From positions 303,235 to 367,234 of the forward strand of contig JBBFKY010000003.1 of assembly GCA_037481875.1 (NCBI GenBank): a DNA stretch of 64,000 nucleotides, written 5' to 3'. This DNA is from Desulfosoma sp. (lineage in GTDB: Bacteria; Desulfobacterota; Syntrophobacteria; Syntrophobacterales; DSM-9756). The notes below the pieces were generated by a model. The model was not told the DNA's origin. It did not search any database and worked only from the letters and a program-made list of their open reading frames with translations. This document shows positions 47,397 to 63,969 of the stretch, piece after piece. Position 1 is the first letter of the stretch; every line of letters begins with the position of its first letter. The translations under genes and the position numbers were made by a program.

Positions 47397-48041
47397 TTAG
47401 CTACAGACTCTAGCGAAGCCCAGGTCAAAGGCCTTTTGGTTGATATCGTACAGTTTGGGCGAAAAGAGCCGATGAAGGCAAGCGTCCCACGCTTCCTTGG
47501 CAATAGGAAGCACCTGCATGGCCGCTACGGCTCCCATGACCACCATGTTGGCCGCCTTGACGGAACCGGCTTCACGGGCCAATGCTTCTGCATCCAGCGT
47601 GACAATCTTTGCCAATTTTTCCTTAAGGTACTTGACGGCATCCCCGATATCGGGATAACGCCCCTGTCCGGCCGCCACCGTAAAAGGCACGATGGGTGAT
47701 ATGCTGACCACGGCAGAGGTTTTGGGATGGCACCGATTGAGAGCCCGCAGAGCTTCCAAGGGTTCAAAGGCTACCAGCACGTCGGCCTGGCCCTCTCCCA
47801 CAATGGGGGCTTGAATGTCTCCGACCACGACGGAAGATTCCACCACACCGCCCCGTTGGGCCATACCGTGGATTTCACTCATGCTCGCATGAAGTCCCGC
47901 GGCCAAAGCCACCTCTCCCACCAATCGCGTGGCCAAAAGGGTTCCTTGCCCTCCCACCCCTGTAAAGAAAAGGCGCAGACCATGAAAGCGCCCATTTTTT
48001 TCTGTCGTCACCGTTTCATCCTCCTGTGCAGCCTTATCCAT
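47397..48041 (-). CDS. iorB: Indolepyruvate:ferredoxin oxidoreductase, beta subunit
   Basis: The gamma-type domain subunit of the enzyme that interconverts arylpyruvate plus CoA with arylacetyl-CoA, CO2 and reduced ferredoxin. The 214-residue protein shows FTGVGGQGTLLATRLVGEVAL, SEIHGMAQRGGVVESSVVVG and ADVLVAFEPLEALRAL, all standard for IorB. Length is normal. It follows iorA by 64 nt, and together they form the complete two-subunit enzyme. Confidence 0.95.
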   Translation of the reverse strand: MDKAAQEDETVTTEKNGRFHGLRLFFTGVGGQGTLLATRLVGEVALAAGLHASMSEIHGMAQRGGVVESSVVVGDIQAPIVGEGQADVLVAFEPLEALRALNRCHPKTSAVVSISPIVPFTVAAGQGRYPDIGDAVKYLKEKLAKIVTLDAEALAREAGSVKAANMVVMGAVAAMQVLPIAKEAWDACLHRLFSPKLYDINQKAFDLGFARVCS

Positions 48042-48105: not shown

Positions 48106-49965
48106 TCAGGCCTCGATTTTCTTCGGTTTGATGGCGTCACACAATTGAGCGCACACGGAACAGCCTCCACACAGAACTTCATTGATGCGAACACAGGCTT
48201 CGCCGCCTCGATCTTGAGTCCACACAAAGGCGGTACAGCCAAGCTGCGCCAGATCTTCTCGGCATGGACGACAATCGCCTGTAACCTGGAACACGACTTT
48301 TTGTTTCGTGCCAAGGATTCGACGCTCATAAAGCGGGCAGGGGGATCGGCTGATGAGGACGGAAACCCCACCCTCTTTCATGCCGGTTTTCATTTCCTGC
48401 AGAACCTGCTGGGTCTTTTTTACTTGCAAGGGGTTGACCACAGCCAATTTTTTCACGCCGCATCCGCGCACCAAGGTTTCCAGATCCACCTTGGCTTGTC
48501 CTTTGCCTTCCTTGGTGAGCCACACACCGGGATGAGGCTGGTGGCCCGTCATGGCTGTGGTGCCGTTATCGAGAATCACCAAAAGGAGGTTTCTTTCATG
48601 GTTCACGGCGTTGATAAGCCCCGTGATACCGCTGTGAAAGAAGGTGGAATCCCCGATAAAAGCCACGACCGGTCGATCCAACACGCGGCTGAAACCTCCG
48701 GCCGTGGAAATGCTGGATCCCATGCAGATCAAGAAATCGGCCATCTGCAAAGGAGGTAAAAGCCCCAGGGTGTAGCAGCCGATATCCGTCGGATAGACGG
48801 CTTCATCGCCGAAGACCTTTTTGACACTAAAGAAAGTGGCCCGATGAGGACATCCCGGACATAGGTTGGGAGGACGAGCCGGTAGATCCTGGGGCACGGC
48901 CAAAGGCTCAGGATCCTGAAACGCAACCCCGAAAAACCTACTGACAGCCTTCTTCACCAGCACCGTGTCCAACTCAAAAGCCCTGGGCACAAACTCTTTT
49001 CCGGCAATCTTTCCGCGAAATCCACATTTTTGAGCAATCCCCCGCACGGATTCTTCTAGGAACGGCTCCAGTTCCTCCACCACCAGCACGGTTTCGAGGC
49101 CGCTCAAAAATTCTGCAACAAGCCTTTCGGGAAAAGGGTGCGTCATGCCGAGCTTTAGAAAACGGACGCGCTCCTTGATCCCCAGTTCCCGCACGGCGTC
49201 TTGAACGTAGAGTGCCGAAACACCACTGGAGATGATGCCCCAAGGCCCGGTGCCTTCCACGGTGTTAAAGGGGCTTGTTTCCGACGTTTCTTTGAGCTGG
49301 GCATGTTTTTCCAAAAGCTTAAGGTGCAGCTTTCGCCCGACCATGGGGACCACGACCAGATTGAATGGATCCTTGGTAAAGGTGCCTTTCGATTTTCCAG
49401 GAAAAATGTCTCCCAGGGTGACGGGGCCTCGGCAGTGGTTGACTCGAGTCGTGGTTCGCAGCAAGACGGGAAGTCCGTACTTTTCAGACAAGGCGTAACC
49501 GGTCACCACCATGTCCTTGGCCTCCTGGGGTGTGGCCGGTTCCAACATGGGCACCCCGGCCATCTTAGCAAAATACCGGTTATCCTGTTCGTTCTGGCTG
49601 GAATGAAGGGAAGGGTCGTCGGCCGAGACAATGACCATACCTGCCTTAACGCCCACATAGGCCAAAGTCATGAAAGCATCGGAAGCCACGTTGAGCCCTA
49701 CATGCTTCATGGACACCAGACTGCGCACGCCGCATTGAGCCGCAGCACAAGCGGATTCCACAGACACCTTTTCGTTCACCGAATATTCCACTTCTGTTTC
49801 GATTTCAGGACCCAAGGCGGCGAAGCCGTCGATGATTTCCGAAGACGGCGTTCCAGGATAAGCAGCGACAAAGCCCACTCCGGCTTCAACGGCTCCGCGA
49901 ATGATAGCTTCATTGCCTAAAAGGAATTTCTTTTCACCTCGAGTCCCGATCAGCAGGTCATGCAT
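48106..49965 (-). CDS. iorA: Indolepyruvate:ferredoxin oxidoreductase, alpha subunit
   Basis: The thiamine-diphosphate and iron-sulfur subunit for transaminated Trp, Phe and Tyr (arylpyruvates). The 619-residue protein starts with the pyrimidine-binding domain (AAYPGTPSSEIIDGF), then ARPPNLCPGCPHRATF and the ThDP Mg site GDSTFFHSGITGLINAV. The C-terminal ferredoxin domain has one clear CxxCxxCxxxC set (Cys599, 602, 605, 609). A second set, Cys565, Cys568 and Cys577, has altered spacing, so the second cluster may be degenerate or differently ligated. It lies 17 nt downstream of paaK. Confidence 0.96.
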   Translation of the reverse strand: MHDLLIGTRGEKKFLLGNEAIIRGAVEAGVGFVAAYPGTPSSEIIDGFAALGPEIETEVEYSVNEKVSVESACAAAQCGVRSLVSMKHVGLNVASDAFMTLAYVGVKAGMVIVSADDPSLHSSQNEQDNRYFAKMAGVPMLEPATPQEAKDMVVTGYALSEKYGLPVLLRTTTRVNHCRGPVTLGDIFPGKSKGTFTKDPFNLVVVPMVGRKLHLKLLEKHAQLKETSETSPFNTVEGTGPWGIISSGVSALYVQDAVRELGIKERVRFLKLGMTHPFPERLVAEFLSGLETVLVVEELEPFLEESVRGIAQKCGFRGKIAGKEFVPRAFELDTVLVKKAVSRFFGVAFQDPEPLAVPQDLPARPPNLCPGCPHRATFFSVKKVFGDEAVYPTDIGCYTLGLLPPLQMADFLICMGSSISTAGGFSRVLDRPVVAFIGDSTFFHSGITGLINAVNHERNLLLVILDNGTTAMTGHQPHPGVWLTKEGKGQAKVDLETLVRGCGVKKLAVVNPLQVKKTQQVLQEMKTGMKEGGVSVLISRSPCPLYERRILGTKQKVVFQVTGDCRPCREDLAQLGCTAFVWTQDRGGEACVRINEVLCGGCSVCAQLCDAIKPKKIEA

Positions 49966-49982: not shown

Positions 49983-51308
49983 TTACGTCGTCGTGCGTCG
50001 ATAATCCACAAAGGGTTTCACTTTCCCATGTTCCCGCACCAGAGAACCTCGCTCCACCAATTTGATCCGTGGAACCAAGCCGATAAAGTTGGCCACCTTT
50101 TGGCGCATTTCGTCCACTAAAGTTCGTTGCTCCCTCATCTTGTCAAAAAACAGTTGTTCCGTAACCTCTATCCATATTTCCAGCTGATCCATATGGCCCT
50201 GGCGTGTCACCACCACCTGATAAGGAGGCCTTGCCCCTTTGACCTGTTCCAAGACATCCCCAATACGCTCAGGAATGATGTTGATGCCCTTGATGACCAC
50301 CACGTCGTCGCAGCGGCCTTCAATGCGGGAAATTCTTCGAAACGTCCTTCCACAAGGGCACGGCTCTGGAAGAAGTCGGCACAGGTCCCCCGTGCGGTAA
50401 CGTATCACCGGAAAGGCCTCTTTGGTCAGTGTCGTGATGACCAGTTCCCCCATTTGCTCAGGCTCACAGGGCTCTCCCGTCACAGGATCCACAATTTCCA
50501 CGAGAAAGTGGTCCTCTTGGACGTGCATGCCGTTTTGTTCAAGGCATTCTCCGGCAACCCCGGGTCCCATGACTTCACTGATGCCGTAATTGTCCGTGGC
50601 GGTAACAAAAAGTCTTTCCTGAATCTCTCGGCGCATCTCCTCCGTCCATGGTTCTCCGGCACACACGGCACGCCTTAGGCTTAACCTCTTGGGATCCACT
50701 CCCAGTTTTTCCATGGTGTCTGCAATGATCAAAGCGTAGGAAGGCGTGCAGACCAAGGCTGTGGTGCGAAAATCCTGCATGATCTTGATCTGGCGTTCGG
50801 TTCGCCCTACCGATGTGGGAAGCACCGAGGCTCCCAATCGCTCCGCCCCATAATGAATGCCTAAACCTCCCGTAAGCAATCCATAGGCAAAGGTCACCTG
50901 AATGACATCATCATGCGTCAGTCCCGCCGAAGCCAGGATTCTGGCCACCAGCTGCGCCCAATTCTTGAGGTCCCGCTTGGTGTAGCCTACGACCCGAGGG
51001 TTGACGGATGTTCCCGAAGACGAATGCACTCGAACAACTTCTCGAAGAGGAACGGCAAACATTTCGTAAGGGTAGCTGTTGCTCACGTCGTCTCGAGTGG
51101 TGAAGGGAAGCCTTCTGAGATCCTCCAAGTCCCCTAAGTCATTTTCAGGCACAAAGCCGATGTCCCGAAACATTCTTCGATAAAAGGCCACATTGCGATC
51201 GACCCGGTTCAAAGTGGCCTGAAGCCGCTCCAGTTGCAACTGACGCAGCTCCTCCAGGTCTAGGCACTCCTTTTCCGGTTCCCAAATTGAAACCGTATCC
51301 GGTGTCAT
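49983..51308 (-). CDS. paaK: Phenylacetate-CoA ligase
   Basis: Joins CoA to phenylacetate and similar arylacetates with ATP. The 441-residue adenylate-forming enzyme has the loop VHSSSGTSVNPRVVGYTKRD, YGISEVMGPGVAGECLEQNG, and a C-terminal PaaK domain (SRIEGRCDDVVVIKGINIIP). The ATG at 51308 follows GAGGGGA; the frame to 51332 is not needed. With iorAB just downstream it links arylacetate, arylacetyl-CoA and arylpyruvate. The pathway can run as catabolism or, with reduced ferredoxin, as reductive synthesis of aromatic amino acids. Confidence 0.95.
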   Translation of the reverse strand: MTPDTVSIWEPEKECLDLEELRQLQLERLQATLNRVDRNVAFYRRMFRDIGFVPENDLGDLEDLRRLPFTTRDDVSNSYPYEMFAVPLREVVRVHSSSGTSVNPRVVGYTKRDLKNWAQLVARILASAGLTHDDVIQVTFAYGLLTGGLGIHYGAERLGASVLPTSVGRTERQIKIMQDFRTTALVCTPSYALIIADTMEKLGVDPKRLSLRRAVCAGEPWTEEMRREIQERLFVTATDNYGISEVMGPGVAGECLEQNGMHVQEDHFLVEIVDPVTGEPCEPEQMGELVITTLTKEAFPVIRYRTGDLCRLLPEPCPCGRTFRRISRIEGRCDDVVVIKGINIIPERIGDVLEQVKGARPPYQVVVTRQGHMDQLEIWIEVTEQLFFDKMREQRTLVDEMRQKVANFIGLVPRIKLVERGSLVREHGKVKPFVDYRRTTT

Positions 51309-51530
51309 GGCTGTCCCCTCAAACGGACCCATTGCATTTTTTTATATTCTGAAAACTCCATTGCGCACGCTTCAAAGACTATAGGACCAGGTGACAGGCT
51401 CGTGAAGCATCCCCGTAGAGCTCGGGCCTTTTAAAGCCAGGCGGACGCTATGGTCTACTCTTTTCAAAAAAATCGGTGCGATAGCAGTATTCCTTCACAC
51501 CCTTGAACCATCAATCCTTGAAAAGCCTTT

Positions 51531-52262
51531 TTAGGCATCCCAAATCTCTTTGGCCCCTTTGCCCAAATAAGCCCTTTGGACTTCACGATGGGCCAAAAGG
51601 TCCCGGCCGTCGCCTTGTAAGACGATTTTTCCGGTTTCCAGAACATAGCCTCGATCTGCAATCTGAAGGGCAGCACGAGCGTTTTGTTCAATGAGCAAAA
51701 TGGTCCGTCCTTCTTTTCGCAGTTCCAGAATAATGTCGAAGATTTCCCGGACAATCAAGGGGGCCAATCCCATGGAGGGTTCATCCAAAAGAAGAAACCG
51801 AGGCCGTGCCATTAAAGCTCGGCAAATGGCAAGCATTTGTTGTTCTCCACCGCTCAAGGTTCCTGCCAACTGATGCCGCCTTTGCCTTAAGACAGGAAAT
51901 CTGTCCAGAAGCCGATCCATGTCCCGGCGCATGCCATAGCGATCTCTTCGGTGAACAAAAGCGCCCATTTCCAGGTTGGCTTCCACGGATAGGGTGGCAA
52001 AAATCTGTCTCCCTTCAGGAACAAGAGAAACACCCTTGTGCACCACATCTTCAGGAGCCAATTGCGTTAGGTCCGTGTCTTCAAAAAGCACGACGCCTTT
52101 GGTGGGTTTAAGAAGCCCACAGATGCAATGAACCAAGGTCGTCTTTCCGGCACCGTTGGCGCCGATCAGGGCCACAATTTCACCGGAGCGCACATGAAGG
52201 GAGACCCCCTTAAGGGCATGAATATTCCCGTAGTAGGCGTGCAGACTTTTGACCGTCAGCAC
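51531..52262 (-). CDS. livF: ABC transporter ATPase LivF
   Basis: The second ATPase of a branched-chain-type amino acid importer. The 243-residue protein has Walker A GANGAGKTTLVHC, the signature LSGGEQQMLAICRAL, Walker B RFLLLDEPSMGLAP, and the LivF-type ending AYLGKG. It follows livG by 78 nt; that spacer contains a fragment (CTCTTCTGCCCGCACGG) reminiscent of the repeat-element modules. A 222-nt gap separates it from paaK. Confidence 0.95.
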   Translation of the reverse strand: MLTVKSLHAYYGNIHALKGVSLHVRSGEIVALIGANGAGKTTLVHCICGLLKPTKGVVLFEDTDLTQLAPEDVVHKGVSLVPEGRQIFATLSVEANLEMGAFVHRRDRYGMRRDMDRLLDRFPVLRQRRHQLAGTLSGGEQQMLAICRALMARPRFLLLDEPSMGLAPLIVREIFDIILELRKEGRTILLIEQNARAALQIADRGYVLETGKIVLQGDGRDLLAHREVQRAYLGKGAKEIWDA

Positions 52263-52340: not shown

Positions 52341-53201
52341 TCAAGCCCTTGTTTTTCGTGGTTCATCGTTGTCCGCAGACGATCTTTTTTGGAGTCCACT
52401 GTTCCCGTTTCCCCACTCTTCTCCTAAGTACGCTTGAATGACGTTTGGGTTGTCCTTAATTTCCCGTGGAGGTCCGGAGGCCAGCACTTGGCCGAAATGG
52501 AGCACCAAAACCCGGTCTGAAATATCCATCACCAGATTCATGTCATGTTCCACGAGAACCACCGTGATCCCTTTTTGCTGAATCCTTCGAAGCAATTCTC
52601 CAAGTTCTTCCGTCTCCCGCGTATTCAATCCCCCCGCGGGTTCGTCCAGTAGAAGCAGAATGGGATCCGTCGCCAGGGCTCGAGCGATCTCCAAAATCTT
52701 TTGCTTCCCCAAAGGCAGGGCTCCCGCAGGCAAATCACGAGCCTCCTGAAGTCCTGCGAAAACCAACCAGGCTTCGGCCTCTTCACGAATTCTGGCCTCT
52801 TCACGGCGCATGGACGGCAGCCGAAATCCTGCGGCCCAAAACCCTGAACGGGTCCGGGCATGGCGCCCGACCATTACATTCTCCCACACGCTCATGTGCG
52901 AAAACAAAGCAACATGCTGAAAGGTGCGGGACAAACCTCGTCGTGCAATTTCGTGGGGACGCTTTCCTTCAACAGGCTCCCCTTGAAAAAGCACGGTGCC
53001 GGAAGACGGTTTGAGCAGACCGCTGATGCAATTGAGCAGTGTGGTTTTGCCTGCTCCATTGGGTCCGATAATCGATTGAATGATGCCTCGAGGGATTTGA
53101 GTGGTCACGCCCTTAAGGGCCACAACGCCCCCGAAGTGCATATGCACCTCATGGAGTTCTAAAATGGGTGCGGTCGATGATGATAAGGATCCTTCGCCCA
53201 T
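52341..53201 (-). CDS. livG: ABC transporter ATPase LivG
   Basis: The first ATPase of the same importer. The 286-residue protein has Walker A GPNGAGKTTLLNC, a LivG-type insertion after the Q-loop (RTFQHVALFSHMSVWENVMVGRH), the signature LPLGKQKILEIARAL, and Walker B ILLLLDEPAGGLN. About 25 extra residues follow the usual AYLGEEW end (GNGNSGLQKRSSADNDEPRKTRA) and look like read-through into non-conserved sequence. Confidence 0.95.
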   Translation of the reverse strand: MGEGSLSSSTAPILELHEVHMHFGGVVALKGVTTQIPRGIIQSIIGPNGAGKTTLLNCISGLLKPSSGTVLFQGEPVEGKRPHEIARRGLSRTFQHVALFSHMSVWENVMVGRHARTRSGFWAAGFRLPSMRREEARIREEAEAWLVFAGLQEARDLPAGALPLGKQKILEIARALATDPILLLLDEPAGGLNTRETEELGELLRRIQQKGITVVLVEHDMNLVMDISDRVLVLHFGQVLASGPPREIKDNPNVIQAYLGEEWGNGNSGLQKRSSADNDEPRKTRA

Positions 53202-53204
53202 GGG

Positions 53205-54188
53205 TCATGAGCCGCCATCTGAGTGAGTTTCACGCAGGCCACGTCTTCGTCCAACCATGCCTTGAAGCCAGACCACCAACCCTTGCGGAACGAACAGGGC
53301 CACAATCAAAAGAATGCCGCCGTAGACAAGGATTTCAAAGTCGGCGAAAACCTGAAGCCATTCGTTCCCCACGAACGTCAACAGCACGGTCCCCACCAAG
53401 GCGCCCCACAGACTCTGCATTCCACCGACCACCACCATGAGCACAAACCGAATGGACCACATCAAATCAAAAGATCCCGGTGAAAGAAAGGAAACGTAGT
53501 GGGCATAAAGACTTCCGGCAATGGACGCTGTAACGGCGCTGTACATAAACACTTGCACCTTGAGGGTCGCCACGGGAACCCCCATGGCTTCTGCTGCCTT
53601 TTCGTCATCGTGAATGGCGCGCAGAGCTCTGCCCACACGAGAATGAAGCACATGGCGTGAAAACAGAAAAACGAGGAGAACCATGCCCCAAACCAGGTAA
53701 AACCAGGCCATATCCCCCGTAAGTTTTCGACCTGCGACAGAAAGTCCGGGAATACCTCCCAACCCCGAAGGTCCTCCGGTCCAATCCACTTCTTCGTTCA
53801 TGATAATGTGGACAATGACCCCAAAACCCAAGGTGGCCATGGCCAGGTAATGCCCTTTAAGGCGTAAAGCCGGCTTTCCCACAAGCCAAGCGATAGCGAC
53901 GGCAACTAAGGCTCCGGCTGCCAAGGCGGCCCAAGGATTCCAATGAAAATGCACTGTGAAAATTCCCGAACCGTAGGCGCCGATACCGAAAAAGGCGGCT
54001 TGAGCCAAAGAGATTTGTCCGGCAAATCCCATGAGAAGACTCAAACCAAGCGTCACAAGGCTAAAGATGCCGGCGAAAATCATGACGTCCGTGTAATGGG
54101 AAAAAGAGCGAGAAATCCCGGCGAGCCACGGGAATACGGCGAGAAGAATGGTCAGGGCACCAAAGGCGGTCTTTTCCCGAAGAGACAT
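53205..54188 (-). CDS. livM: ABC transporter permease LivM
   Basis: A 327-residue permease with about nine to ten transmembrane helices. It has the LivM hallmarks SLLMGFAGQISLAQAAFFGIGAY, LRLKGHYLAMATLGFG, HSRVGRALRAIHDDEKAAEAMGV and GGMQSLWGALVGT. It pairs with LivH. Only 3 nt separate its stop from the livG start, so expression is tightly coupled. Confidence 0.95.
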   Translation of the reverse strand: MSLREKTAFGALTILLAVFPWLAGISRSFSHYTDVMIFAGIFSLVTLGLSLLMGFAGQISLAQAAFFGIGAYGSGIFTVHFHWNPWAALAAGALVAVAIAWLVGKPALRLKGHYLAMATLGFGVIVHIIMNEEVDWTGGPSGLGGIPGLSVAGRKLTGDMAWFYLVWGMVLLVFLFSRHVLHSRVGRALRAIHDDEKAAEAMGVPVATLKVQVFMYSAVTASIAGSLYAHYVSFLSPGSFDLMWSIRFVLMVVVGGMQSLWGALVGTVLLTFVGNEWLQVFADFEILVYGGILLIVALFVPQGLVVWLQGMVGRRRGLRETHSDGGS

Positions 54189-54193
54189 GGCGC

Positions 54194-55096
54194 CTAAAAC
54201 CTCTTCAGCCCGGCGGCCTCTTTGCTTCCAAACAGGCCTTCCGGCTTAAAGAACAGCGCCAACATGAGCAACACAAGGGCCACGGCGTCCTTGTAACCGG
54301 AGGAGAGATAACCGGCGCAAAAGGATTCCGACAATCCTAAGAGCAGGCCGGCTACCAAAGCCCCGGAGAACTGCCCGAGTCCTCCGAGGACAGCGGCGCC
54401 AAAACCCTTGAGCCCAAGCAAAGCGCCACGATCATATTCCATAAGGGTGATAGGACAGATGGCAGCCCCGGCCACAGCCCCTACGGTGGCGCTCAAAACA
54501 AAGGACAGCATCACCATGGTGCGCACGGGAATTCCGACAAGTCTCGCGGCATTGGGATTGTCGGCACAAGCCAGCATGGCTTTGCCGTAAAAAGATTTAC
54601 GAAAAAAGACGGTTAAGATACCCACAACCAAAGCACTGATTCCCAATACCCAGAGAGCTTGAGGTTGCACGGCCACACCGTGCCAGAGAAAAGCTCCGGT
54701 GCCGCTGAAAGCCGGAAGTCTGTGAGGATCCTTGCCCCAGGCCAGCATGGCCCCACCTTTCAGCAGAATGGAAAAGGCGATGGTGACAATGATCATGGAA
54801 AGAACCGTGGCGTGGCGAGCTCGCCGTATCACGTATCGTTCCAAAAACAACCCCACAACTCCCACCGTGAGTACCGCGCTGAACACCGCGGGCGCCAAAG
54901 GCAAACCGCACGTCTGATGATAAAAAACCCCAAACAACCCCCCAAGCATCACAAATTCACCTTGGGCAAAATTGATGATTTCAGTGACGTTGTAAATGAT
55001 GTTGTATCCGATGGCCACCAGGGCATAGATGGCACCAATGGTTATGCCACCCAGTGCGTACTGAAGCCATGCCGCTCCGTAAAAAAAGTCGCCCAT
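54194..55096 (-). CDS. livH: ABC transporter permease LivH
   Basis: A 300-residue permease with the LivH signatures YALVAIGYNIIYNVTEIINFAQGEFVMLGG, CADNPNAARLVGIPV and KGFGAAVLGGLGQFSGALVAG. I start at the ATG at 55096 (AAGGGCG upstream) and drop 22 codons of the longer frame, which run back into the intercistronic terminator. An intrinsic terminator lies between livK and livH, so the permeases should be made in smaller amounts than the binding protein. Confidence 0.95.
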   Translation of the reverse strand: MGDFFYGAAWLQYALGGITIGAIYALVAIGYNIIYNVTEIINFAQGEFVMLGGLFGVFYHQTCGLPLAPAVFSAVLTVGVVGLFLERYVIRRARHATVLSMIIVTIAFSILLKGGAMLAWGKDPHRLPAFSGTGAFLWHGVAVQPQALWVLGISALVVGILTVFFRKSFYGKAMLACADNPNAARLVGIPVRTMVMLSFVLSATVGAVAGAAICPITLMEYDRGALLGLKGFGAAVLGGLGQFSGALVAGLLLGLSESFCAGYLSSGYKDAVALVLLMLALFFKPEGLFGSKEAAGLKRF

Positions 55097-55124
55097 GAAG
55101 ACGCCCTTAGCTCGGTTTTTCCTC

Positions 55125-55168
55125 AAAAAAGCCGGCGTGCTCGTCACCGCATGTGTCGGCACGCCGGC
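55125..55168 (-). terminator. Intercistronic terminator between livK and livH
   Basis: On the minus strand GCCGGCGTGC pairs perfectly with GCACGCCGGC and is followed by six T (A-run 55125-55130 on the plus strand). It is a partial terminator or mRNA stabiliser that would raise the binding protein over the membrane parts. Confidence 0.85.
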
Positions 55169-56400: not shown

Positions 56401-56480
56401 AAAAAAGGGCCGTGGGAACATCCCACGGCCCTAACAAAAAAAGCCGTGGGCAAACCTGGATCTGCGGTCTGCCCACGGCT
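56401..56480 (-). promoter_or_regulatory. Tandem terminators of a transcription attenuator
   Basis: Minus-strand order: terminator 1 has an 11-bp perfect stem (arms 56470-56480 and 56442-56452, CCGTGGGC core) and seven T. Terminator 2 has an 11-bp perfect stem (56421-56431 and 56407-56417) with a 3-nt loop and six T. Competing pairings exist. GCGGTCTGCCC in the leader frame (56509-56519) is an exact 11-nt complement of GGGCAGACCGC (56464-56474), which overlaps the 5' arm of terminator 1. The freed 3' arm of terminator 1 can pair (8 bp, CCCACGGC with GCCGTGGG) with the 5' arm of terminator 2. Read-through would turn on livK. Confidence 0.8.
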
Positions 56481-56500
56481 AACTTGGCGGAGTGTCGACG

Positions 56501-56572
56501 TCACCGACGGGCAGACCGCCTGAGGTAGCCGTAGCCGTAATAGTCATATCGCCGGGAAACCGAAAAAACCAT
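56501..56572 (-). CDS. Tyrosine-rich leader peptide of the liv operon
   Basis: A 23-codon frame, ATG at 56572 and TGA at 56501-56503, too short for ordinary gene calling. AGAGGAG lies 4-5 nt upstream, a strong ribosome site. Residues 9-16 read YDYYGYGY, five Tyr codons in eight, with a Phe at position 3; the rest is basic. Codons 18-22 contain the antiterminator arm GCGGTCTGCCC. A ribosome that stalls at the Tyr codons leaves that arm free, while one that reaches the stop covers it. This is the arrangement of classic amino-acid leader peptides (trpL, pheL). The peptide itself probably has no other role. Confidence 0.78.
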   Translation of the reverse strand: MVFSVSRRYDYYGYGYLRRSARR

Positions 56573-56627
56573 GATGCTCCTCTGCCTCATGAAACCCTGC
56601 CCGTCCATCGGAACCCTTTTCGCCTCT

Positions 56628-56657
56628 CGTTTACCTGCTCCCGCGTTCCTGTGTCAA
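56628..56657 (-). promoter_or_regulatory. Predicted promoter of the attenuated liv operon
   Basis: On the minus strand TTGACA (56652-56657) and TAAACG (56628-56633) are 18 nt apart. The -35 overlaps the stop codon of the upstream isomerase gene. Transcription would begin about 50 nt before the leader-peptide start. Confidence 0.6.
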
Positions 56658-61070: not shown

Positions 61071-61100
61071 TTGAAAGCACGTACGCGCCTATGCTATAGA
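61071..61100 (+). promoter_or_regulatory. Predicted promoter of the second liv operon
   Basis: TTGAAA (61071-61076) and TATAGA (61095-61100) with an 18-nt spacer, about 70 nt before the livJ-like start codon. Confidence 0.6.
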
Positions 61101-61169
61101 GGCTTTCGTCTTGGATCGACTGTGATGTCCCATAAACCCCATCACTTTTCAAGCCAAGGAGGAAAAACC

Positions 61170-62342
61170 ATGTCGCGACGAAAACCCTTGATTGTTTTTT
61201 TTGCTTTCTTAGCCGTCGTAGGCTACCTGTCCATGGCGTCGGCTGCGAACACGATCAAGATCGGTTTTAACATTCCTCTCACCGGCGACATTCCCAAAGT
61301 GGGAGAAGGATCCAAGTACGCGGCCGAAATTTTTCTGGCGGAGGTGAATGGGGCCGGTGGCATCAAGGTCGGAGACAAGACCTACTTACTGCAGTTTATT
61401 TATGAGGACAACGAATCCAAAGCGGAATCGGCTACGGCTGCTGCCCTGAAGCTCATCACGCAAGACCAGGTCCTGGCCATCGTTGGACCTCAGGCCAGCA
61501 AACAAGCCATTCCCGCAGGGGAAGTGTGTAATTCTTACAAGACTCCAATGATTTCCCCATGGTCGACCAATCCTCAGACCACATTGAACCGCCCTTATGT
61601 GTTTCGAGCCTGTTTCTTGGATCCTTTTCAGGGACCGGTAGCGGCCAAGTTCGCTACTGAAGAATTTCAAGCCAAAAAAGCCGCAGTCCTTTATGACATT
61701 GCCAGCGATTATCCCAAGGGACTCGCTGAATATTTTAAGGAAGCTTTTGAAAAGATTCACGGACCCGGTTCTGTGGTGGCTTTTGAAACCTTTACCACCA
61801 AGGATCGCGATTTCAGTGCGCAGCTGACCAACATCATCAAATCCGGCGCCGATGTTCTCTTTACCCCTCAATACTACGACGAAGTGCCCCTGATCGTAAA
61901 ACAGGCCCATCAATTGGGATGGAAGAAACCCATCATGGGCAGTGATAGTTGGGGTTCGGCGGAACTCATGAAACTGTGCGGGGATGACTGCAAGGGGCTC
62001 TTTTTCACCACCCACTATGCGGCTGCGGGAGCTAAAGGGGCCACCAAAGAGTTTATCGACAAATACAATGCCAAATACGGGTATGTGCCGGACGATGTGG
62101 CGGCCCTCACCTGGGATGCCATTCGGCTTCTGGTTCAAGCCATTCAAAACACGGGAGGGCTAACCGGGGATCTGGAAAAAGACCGTGATAACGTGAAGAA
62201 TGCTTTGGCCCAAATCAAGGACTTTGAAGGTATCACCGGGAAAATGACTTTCACCCCTGAAGGCGATCCCATCAAGTGCGCCGTGGTGGTGAAGATCAGT
62301 GATAAGGGGGAATTTGAATTTTACAAGTCCGTATGCCCATAA
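61170..62342 (+). CDS. Second branched-chain-type ABC substrate-binding protein
   Basis: A 390-residue exported binding protein. The signal peptide is MSRRKPLIVFFAFLAVVGYL ... ASA, then NTIKIGFNIPLTGDIPKVGEGSKYAAE. Core motifs are AIVGPQASKQAIPAGEVCN, DFSAQLTNIIKSGADVLFTPQYYDEVPLIVKQA, and a C-terminal FEGITGKMTFTPEGDPIK. It is only distantly similar to the binding protein at 55190-56371, so the ligand probably differs. I start at 61170 behind AAGGAGG; the frame opens further up but without a ribosome site. Its permease gene is 700 nt downstream, beyond a repeat element. Confidence 0.93.
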   Translation: MSRRKPLIVFFAFLAVVGYLSMASAANTIKIGFNIPLTGDIPKVGEGSKYAAEIFLAEVNGAGGIKVGDKTYLLQFIYEDNESKAESATAAALKLITQDQVLAIVGPQASKQAIPAGEVCNSYKTPMISPWSTNPQTTLNRPYVFRACFLDPFQGPVAAKFATEEFQAKKAAVLYDIASDYPKGLAEYFKEAFEKIHGPGSVVAFETFTTKDRDFSAQLTNIIKSGADVLFTPQYYDEVPLIVKQAHQLGWKKPIMGSDSWGSAELMKLCGDDCKGLFFTTHYAAAGAKGATKEFIDKYNAKYGYVPDDVAALTWDAIRLLVQAIQNTGGLTGDLEKDRDNVKNALAQIKDFEGITGKMTFTPEGDPIKCAVVVKISDKGEFEFYKSVCP

Positions 62343-62360
62343 CCCATGGTGCGGCGTAAC

Positions 62361-62742
62361 CTAGGGGGGCTTGTCCGAAAGAGAGAAAAGGCAATGGTTT
62401 TTCTGGGAGCAGGGGCCTTCGGCCCGCCATCTGTGCGGGTGGAGAACCTTCGCTCCGAGAAAAATAGCTCCGATTCAGGTTTGTAGGGGCGAGGCGGCGC
62501 CTCACCCCTACCTGAAACAGCGTTCGTATCAGAGGTCATTGGGCGTTTTCGGTCAACCCTCTCGAGTTTTTCCCAGAACCAATTTTGCCGTGGGACCGCG
62601 GGCGCCCCGCCCGCTCAAATGGCGGGACAAGAGCCCGCTGACGAAAAGATACAGGTGTCGGCTGGTAGGGACGAGGCGGCGCCTCGCTCCTACCGGAAAA
62701 GGTATTCGAGGCGCCAATCATTGTGTGCTCTTGGACACGCTC
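62361..62742. repeat. Composite inverted-repeat element, copy D
   Basis: The left end is CTAGGGGGGCTTGTCCGAAA. The right end (62722-62742) is an imperfect inverse with GGACACGCTCT. It contains two core palindromes of the family, GTAGGGGCGAGGCGGCGCC at 62483-62511 and GTAGGGACGAGGCGGCGCC at 62665-62693. Each is preceded by a GC-rich GGGCC/CGGGC module, so it looks like two units in tandem. It lies inside the second liv operon. Confidence 0.68.
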
Positions 62743-62929
62743 TCGATGGCAAGCCGAAAGATAGCAATCAGCATGGGCTCTCACTTCATGGCATCCACGA
62801 AGACCGGCAAAAAGGGGCAAGCCTTGGTTTTTCTGAAAGCACAGGAAACCGGCAGGGAACGCTCCCCTTATAGCATCATTCGGTGGGTCCAGTTTTGAAC
62901 GAAAGTCTTGCTTGATTGCTCACATGGAC

Positions 62930-62966
62930 GGGCTCCCTCGCCCTCCCTCGTACGGCGAGGGAGCCC
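62930..62966 (+). other. Intercistronic hairpin before livH of the second operon
   Basis: GGGCTCCCTCGCC (62930-62942) pairs perfectly with GGCGAGGGAGCCC (62954-62966): 13 bp with an 11-nt loop. There is no T-run. It occupies the same place, between binding protein and permease, as the terminator hairpin of the first liv operon, and probably stabilises the upstream message or reduces read-through. The rest of 62743-63042 shows no gene. Confidence 0.6.
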
Positions 62967-63042
62967 TTGCCTTGCAACGGGGTTTTTCCGGGAATCCCCG
63001 AAGCGTTTCAACGTCAACCCTTAGAGAAAAACGGAACGGCTC

Positions 63043-63969
63043 GTGGATTTGCTTCTGCAAAACATCCTGAACGCTCTTCAGTGGGGAAGTTTTTACGCCC
63101 TGATCGCTCTGGGCTACACCCTGGTCTATGGGGTGTTGCTCTTGATCAATTTCGCCCACGGAGACATCTTCATGGTAGGGGCCTACATCGGCTTTTTCGT
63201 CGCTAATTTCCTCTTGGGCGTCTATGCTTTTAAATTGCCCGTAAGCCTTTCTCCACCCTTGGTTTTCGTGCTTACCCTTTTGGCCGCTATGGTTTTGACG
63301 GCTCTTGTGGGTGTCACTTTGGAAAGAGTGGCCTATCGGCCGTTGCGACGTCGTGGTGCCCCGCGTCTTTATGTGGTCATCACCGCTCTGATGTGCGGCT
63401 TGCTTTTGGAAAATGGCAATTTGGCTCTTCTCGGAGCCAGCCGACGCAGTTTTCCCACCCTGATTCCCACAACGGTCTATGACGTAGCCGGCGTGCTTGT
63501 CACCAACGTGAAAATCCTCGTCATCATCGCGACCATTCTTGTCTTTATTTTTTTAGAGACCGTCGTGCGCAAAACAAAGCTCGGCATGGCCATGAGGGCT
63601 ATTTCCTATGATCGCATGGCCGTTCCCCTGATGGGTATTCCTGTGGATCGTGTCATTGTTTTCACTTTCGTTCTGGGGTCTTCCATGGCGGCTTTGGGAG
63701 GGGTGCTTTTCGCTTCGGCTTACCCGGTTCTAGAACCCTACATGGGGGCTCTCATCGGCTGGAAAGCTTTTATTGCGGCGGTCATCGGCGGCATCGGTGA
63801 AATTCGAGGGGCCTTTGTGGGCGGATTTCTTCTCGGCTTTGTGGAGATTTTTGTAGCCGCTTTCTTCCCGTCCACACTGAGGGATCTTATCGCCTTCAGC
63901 ATTTTGCTGGTGTTTTTGAGTTTCCGTCCTACAGGCATTTTCGGTGTCGCACGGGCCACCAAAATCTGA
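63043..63969 (+). CDS. livH: Second branched-chain-type ABC permease LivH
   Basis: A 308-residue permease with the LivH signatures YALIALGYTLVYGVLLLINFAHGDIFMVGAYIG, RAISYDRMAVPLMGIPV and IGWKAFIAAVIGGIGEIRGAFVGG; about eight membrane helices. The start is GTG at 63043. It belongs to the operon begun by the binding-protein gene at 61170 and is distinct from the LivH at 54194-55096. Confidence 0.94.
   Translation: MDLLLQNILNALQWGSFYALIALGYTLVYGVLLLINFAHGDIFMVGAYIGFFVANFLLGVYAFKLPVSLSPPLVFVLTLLAAMVLTALVGVTLERVAYRPLRRRGAPRLYVVITALMCGLLLENGNLALLGASRRSFPTLIPTTVYDVAGVLVTNVKILVIIATILVFIFLETVVRKTKLGMAMRAISYDRMAVPLMGIPVDRVIVFTFVLGSSMAALGGVLFASAYPVLEPYMGALIGWKAFIAAVIGGIGEIRGAFVGGFLLGFVEIFVAAFFPSTLRDLIAFSILLVFLSFRPTGIFGVARATKI

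Follow-up and report, generated by a model that had tools for sequence, protein, structure and literature searches.

Leader-peptide attenuation is a textbook class of regulatory mechanism, exemplified by the trp, phe, and his leaders of the γ-proteobacteria. The attenuator specificities given in one account (PMC3766115) are his, leu, thr, and trp plus ilv and phe, with tyrosine absent, and for tyrosine operons the form of RNA regulation given is the T-box (PMC1262725). A putative attenuator is listed before the aroA'-aroB'-pheA-aroF-tyrA-trp operon of Desulfovibrio vulgaris (PMC1173090, Table 7). In methanogens, the CoA ligase PaaK and indolepyruvate:ferredoxin oxidoreductase (Ior) together carry out arylacetate assimilation by reductive carboxylation (PMC6737245). 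Here, we describe a leader within a 64,000-nucleotide stretch of Desulfosoma sp. DNA (the window, i.e., the whole stretch analyzed) that is best read as a ribosome-mediated transcription attenuator responding to tyrosine supply, a reading to which we assign a probability of roughly 0.8 on the strength of sequence comparison; there are no expression data, and nothing has been tested in cells.

The leader between the FKBP-like gene and livK

All elements of the leader are encoded on the minus strand, with an FKBP-like gene (57190-56654) on one side and livK (56371-55190) on the other. The promoter named in the original prediction is present in the sequence, with a -35 box TTGACA (56652-56657) that overlaps the stop codon of the FKBP-like gene, an 18-nt spacer, and a -10 box TAAACG (56628-56633) that is weak; this promoter is absent from the list produced by a generic promoter scan of the window, and TTGACA is found no more than 110 nt upstream in 18 of 21 Tyr leaders. 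The predicted short frame is there as well: a ribosome-binding site AGAGGAG (56577-56583) is followed by a 23-codon open reading frame plus stop (56501-56572) that encodes MVFSVSRRYDYYGYGYLRRSARR and is kept in 18 aligned loci. Its putative control codons, identified as such by the retention of Tyr across leaders, occupy residues 9–16 (TAT GAC TAT TAC GGC TAC GGC TAC; 56525-56548), with Tyr at residues 9, 11, 12, 14, and 16; with five Tyr in eight codons, the frame ranks first of the 1173 short ORFs of the window, the runner-up having three.

Codons 18–22 contain segment X (GCGGTCTGCCC; 56509-56519), the predicted 5' strand of an antiterminator and, as originally proposed, the exact complement of segment Y (GGGCAGACCGC; 56464-56474), which is common to X:Y and to the 5' arm of the first terminator, T1. 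T1 is the Y:Z hairpin (56442-56480), with a 15-bp stem and a 7-T tail whose U-tract continues to 56436, and segment Z (56442-56456) is its 3' arm. The second terminator, T2 (56406-56432), has a 12-bp stem made of T2a (56432-56421) and T2b (56417-56406) and a 6-T tail that runs to 56401. Both T-tailed terminators had thus been correctly recognized, although their stems are slightly longer than the 11 bp then claimed, and the 3' arm of T1 (CCCACGGC) does pair exactly with the 5' arm of T2 (GCCGTGGG). Finally, segment 0 (GACGGGCAG; 56597-56605) is the complement of CTGCCCGTC in the X region and is a candidate partner in a protector hairpin that, in an untranslated leader, could hold X and favor termination. 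The whole leader folds with a z-score of -5.8, and none of 200 shuffled sequences was equally stable.

The operon and its relatives

The original prediction took the regulated genes to be a livKHMGF importer linked to paaK and ior genes. Liv-type genes do follow the leader, in an eight-gene liv-paaK-iorAB operon on the same strand, and the importer is probably one for aromatic acids. The first gene encodes the substrate-binding protein LivK (Peripla_BP_6); genes for the permeases LivH (54194-55162) and LivM (53205-54188) and the ATPases LivG (52341-53201) and LivF (51531-52262) come next, with synteny among the evidence for these four. Downstream of these are a paaK-like gene for an aryl-acid CoA ligase (49983-51332; TIGR02155 score of 494.6 bits, below the cut-off of 646.3), iorA for the α subunit of Ior (48106-49965; TIGR03336, 737 bits, above cut-off), and iorB for the β subunit (47397-48041; TIGR03334 and PRK06853.1-3, slightly below their cut-offs). 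At two leader-bearing loci (L013 and L036), paaK was not seen after livF. A second liv-type binding protein and permease lie near the operon on the plus strand (61071-63969), the binding protein having 28% identity to livK.

An AlphaFold model of LivK (pLDDT 90) has Rhodopseudomonas solute-binding proteins as its nearest solved structures (Z about 46), including chains in complex with 3-phenylpyruvate (4dqd) and p-coumarate (4f8j), and the sequence search agrees. Because these closest solved relatives bind aromatic acids, we infer that the likeliest role of the operon is aryl-acid salvage by PaaK and Ior, not branched-chain uptake; PaaK could, for example, activate 4-hydroxyphenylacetate, which Ior would then carboxylate reductively toward tyrosine. 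Control by scarcity of Tyr or Phe fits a biosynthetic direction of PaaK and Ior, a direction that is itself inferred. The genome has its own tyrA, so that salvage would be an economy rather than a necessity.

Four further leaders were found in the same genome. Two have Trp codons: RFWWCWWWC, which is followed by terminators in tandem, precedes DAHPS-trpE and other trp genes (L118, G000:C7:68760-68891, plus strand), and MRVWSWWWQAWT precedes a TrpB-like gene. In front of DAHPS-tyrA stands a mixed leader with the stretch GFYFYYGWYQ (MHRNGTVQGFYFYYGWYQGPLGVGRPPR), also with tandem terminators (L117, G000:C2:85182-85302, minus strand), which may read Phe, Tyr, and Trp jointly. The fourth, a Phe leader (MKRFFRFGFIGGDGGFFFRKSAHGRAG; L125/L133, G000:C1:555998-556076, plus strand), precedes a paralogous paaK-ACT-livKHMGF-paaK operon, whose "ACT" gene has no NCBIfam match and was named from its reading only; leaders of the same Phe type precede paaK at three other loci (L027, L041, and L043), and in a sister clade (L061, L062, L064, and L065), Phe codons occur in the leader of livK itself (FCFF, GFFFCFF). 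The control amino acid named in the original prediction, tyrosine, is thus replaced by Phe in that sister clade and in the genome's own paralogous operon, and the occurrence of Tyr and Phe leaders on related operons implies that the control amino acid swaps between the two. The PaaK model scores the window protein at 495 bits versus 627–638 bits for the PaaKs of Phe-leader operons, a gap that would fit a different substrate for the former. Separately, the 3-dehydroquinate synthase II gene of this genome has upstream of it a weak model match (L128, G000:C3:227998-228134, minus strand), a candidate Phe/Tyr leader, MNIRSEQFYGAYFFGGKVWAEP, that is accompanied by only one terminator, which is GC-rich.

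It remains possible, if doubtful, that the Tyr attenuator is real but serves an operon that imports tyrosine, phenylalanine, or peptides, with PaaK and Ior not biosynthetic. Some HAAT binding proteins do carry amino acids, and a fold alone cannot give the ligand; what speaks for aryl acids instead is the presence of the two aromatic-acid complexes among the nearest solved chains, the linkage of the importer to a CoA ligase and Ior, and the Phe-leader paralogue, which is likewise found with paaK.

A covariance model built from 18 leaders was searched over 395 Desulfobacterota genomes, the weaker matches being only partly checked. The window, itself part of the training set, is found at 6e-29, and all of the best 30 matches are aromatic-run leaders, the associated genes being ones of aromatic supply or liv-type transport wherever they could be assigned. 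Nine of the 30 precede the liv operon (two of them, L093 and L094, assigned by downstream gene size and leader likeness and not by family search), and one Phe leader (L095) precedes a different liv-type binding-protein operon, recognized by weak LivK similarity and neighboring liv genes; the others stand before trpE (two), a TrpB-like gene (three), ADH synthase (five), DAHP synthase (five), a PLP aminotransferase (four), or, at a contig end, a gene that is not identifiable (L097). That the downstream genes supply the sensed amino acid is seen for trp, DAHPS-tyrA, and other members and is inferred for liv-paaK-ior. At the four aminotransferase loci (L103, L107, L110, and L115), the gene for a PRK06836-type PLP enzyme follows Phe/Tyr leaders that have a GCCATGG core, which suggests that aromatic aminotransferase activity in that clade resides in this enzyme. 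At L095/L119 (G271:C20), the Phe leader reads FFAFFSFFGFF, and a large ORF lies between the ATPase and permease genes of the liv-type operon.

Conservation of the Tyr run and the alternative pairings

Public genomes were scanned for LivK relatives, and the DNA upstream of the 48 loci obtained was read for Tyr-rich short ORFs. The Tyr-leader arrangement recurs in 18 distinct species-level loci of LivK homologues, window included, in Desulfosoma, Desulfacinum, and Desulfoferrobacter and in uncultured members of the Syntrophobacteraceae, Desulfobacteraceae, and Desulfarculales. The plan is always the same: a short ORF has a run of Tyr codons and contains X near its end, and the hairpin Y:Z and the second terminator T2 follow. 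Examples of the peptides are GYYYYGYLRRSA (Desulfacinum, L010-L012), DYYYTYFRRSAR (L013), RYYYYYYYYNVLPTAAQ (L017), and AYYYYYYDRGESVR (L023). Among the Tyr leaders, TAT (57) and TAC (50) replace one another freely, the X codons AGG CGG TCT GCC are the same in 13 of 17, and X starts 0–8 nt past the last Tyr codon. The amino acid is thus conserved in the first half of the frame and the nucleotides in the second half, the signature expected of ribosome-mediated attenuation. The proposed alignment of orthologous leaders, in which loss of the aromatic codons or of the antiterminator pairing would have been damaging, accordingly shows both retained. No aromatic-run leader was seen in the examined upstream DNA of nine other LivK homologues (L024-L026, L031-L035, and L040); at one of them (L026:5880-5950), an out-of-frame YYSYLY stretch lies upstream of livK without terminators and is possibly a decayed leader.

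Stem pairing was scored on an 18-row leader alignment and, in a wider set of 49 leaders, by comparing duplex energies of matched and permuted partners. It should be noted that automatic hairpin choice misassigned the arms in 13 of the 49, which were reset by hand (the tests hold without those 13), and that permutation does not fully remove relatedness among the leaders. In the alignment, X:Y is paired in 94.5% of cells, compared with 33%–44% when the strands are slid, and T1 is 88% paired. Compensatory changes had been anticipated in both alternative stems; T2 has two-sided changes, but X:Y has wobble changes only, because X is nearly invariant and four alignment rows are misaligned. Pair counts being uninformative for X:Y, duplex energies were used instead, and here matched partners (-24.1 kcal/mol) outdo permuted ones (-18.7 kcal/mol), with 0 of 5000 permutations as good. 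Segment 0 is also matched to the X region over the 49 leaders (0/5000), more weakly so in the Tyr leaders alone (313/5000).

T2 covaries in its own right, with six pairs and 25 cells changed on both sides, a cell count not reached in any of 500 shuffles. The relay pairing Z:T2a is 89% paired in the alignment (a percentage matched by 0/500 shuffles), and its matched energy (-16.8 kcal/mol) is more favorable than the permuted one (-15.6 kcal/mol; 0/5000), a result that persists in 22 non-redundant leaders (2/5000) and without the hand-set arms (0/5000). The mirror pairing Y:T2b provides a control, because plain duplication of a terminator would preserve it as well as Z:T2a; it is not species-matched (823/5000 and 956/5000) and is weaker than Z:T2a in 32 of 49 leaders (p = 0.008). 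In L064 and L065, which have Phe leaders, the sequence of T1 has diverged, yet Z:T2a still has 13 pairs. At L017, L018, and L062, the Y:Z hairpin is kept but its U-tract is lost, leaving T2 as the sole terminator, switchable only through Z. We consider it unlikely, on this evidence, that attenuation is of the classical four-segment kind at T1 only, with T2 a passive back-up or a terminator of upstream readthrough that resembles T1 because it arose by duplication. T1 by itself would make a complete attenuator in the window, and the core sequence common to both terminators gives cross-complementarity for free; a T2 that could not be opened, however, would block the operon at every readthrough of T1, the asymmetry between Z:T2a and Y:T2b is not what duplication predicts, and at three loci the first hairpin lacks a U-tract. 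The suggestion that one switch opens both terminators has, in this respect, gained support. As far as such comparisons can establish them, the Tyr run and its codons, X:Y, Y:Z, T2, the species-matched Z:T2a, and the use of the design on other aromatic operons appear secure.

How a relay attenuator of this kind would work is inferred, including the positions of the ribosome, kinetic control, the sign of the response, and the sensing of charged tRNA. With ample Tyr-tRNA, the ribosome would pass the Tyr codons and reach the stop codon (56503-56501), where its footprint, given the size of a ribosome footprint, would cover X (56519-56509); Y would then pair with Z to form T1, T2 would form as well, and transcription would end before livK. 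With scarce Tyr-tRNA, a ribosome stalled at Tyr codons 9–14 would leave X free to capture Y before Z is transcribed, and Z, left without a partner, would capture T2a before T2b is made, so that neither terminator forms and liv-paaK-iorAB is transcribed. When the RNA is folded only as far as Y, X:Y predominates in nearly all leaders. At equilibrium, T1 plus T2 is favored downstream of a stalled ribosome in the window (-56.1 versus -38.5 kcal/mol for X:Y plus Z:T2a) and in most leaders, X:Y winning in about 11 of 49; antitermination must therefore be kinetic, with the order of synthesis deciding, and equilibrium folding neither supports nor refutes such a switch. The predicted sign, in which starvation turns the operon on, is supported by the leader geometry and by the recurrence of this architecture on biosynthetic operons, trp and DAHPS-tyrA among them.

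The opposite sign, a TnaC-type catabolic induction in which abundant tyrosine pauses the ribosome and turns on aromatic degradation by paaK and ior, seems very improbable: degradation is a possible role for Liv, PaaK, and Ior, the last being known from peptide fermentation (PMC6737245), but a ribosome at the stop codon would mask X and favor termination, the control run consists of many Tyr codons with no fixed arrest peptide, and the same architecture stands on the biosynthetic genes trp, DAHPS-tyrA, and ADH synthase. That these are merely the tandem terminators of the FKBP-like gene beside a chance short ORF, as the overlap of the -35 box with the FKBP stop codon and their location between that gene and livK might suggest, is refuted by the conserved ORF with its Tyr run and by X:Y, and the FKBP-like gene is upstream only in the nearest relatives (L009-L012 and copies) while the leader persists at many loci without it, which means that the terminators do not merely serve that gene.

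Relation to described attenuators

No Rfam leader family (Trp, His, Leu, or Thr) scores above its gathering threshold in the window or in 19 related loci. No tyrosine leader-peptide attenuator, on a transporter of this kind or otherwise, was found in the searchable literature, which comprised open-licence papers and left key older reviews out of scope, and the original remark that none had been described stands within that limit. To the same extent, the Tyr specificity, the target operon, and the relay are undescribed; the Trp leaders of Desulfobacterota may already be known in literature outside our search. We regard it as an even bet that a relay attenuator with six segments (0, X, Y, Z, T2a, and T2b) is the standard aromatic amino-acid switch of Desulfobacterota, codon changes alone having given versions specific for Trp, Phe, and Tyr, with two of these versions governing paralogous operons for aryl-acid salvage by biosynthetic PaaK and Ior. 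The attenuator reading itself would add tyrosine to the few amino acids whose supply is sensed through a translated leader, would make attenuation a main form of aromatic control in a phylum beyond the textbook examples, and would supply a relay that couples two terminators to a single ribosome position. The codon run would also predict substrates, since Tyr and Phe leaders on paralogous liv-paaK operons suggest 4-hydroxyphenyl and phenyl acids, respectively, and that Ior acts as a biosynthetic enzyme in these sulfate reducers.

Like the methanogen route, the operon combines a CoA ligase with Ior, but here in a bacterium, in a single operon that also has its own importer and is preceded by a Tyr attenuator, and with the direction inferred. 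The tyrosine T-boxes of Firmicutes likewise place aromatic amino acid genes under control of tyrosine supply, but they bind uncharged tRNA directly, whereas the window leader is a translated ORF. The Desulfovibrio vulgaris case is also a δ-proteobacterial aromatic operon with predicted attenuation; it is an automated website prediction, and the text of PMC1173090 contains no leader peptide, Tyr codons, or tandem relay. The nearest likeness is to the γ-proteobacterial trp, phe, and his attenuators, which likewise have a short ORF with many codons for the amino acid under control, alternative pairings, and, ahead of the first gene, an intrinsic terminator; segments 0, X, Y, and Z correspond in order to 1, 2, 3, and 4. 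The window leader differs from them in its Tyr codons, in its operon of transporter, CoA ligase, and oxidoreductase genes, and in having T2a and T2b chained to segment 4.
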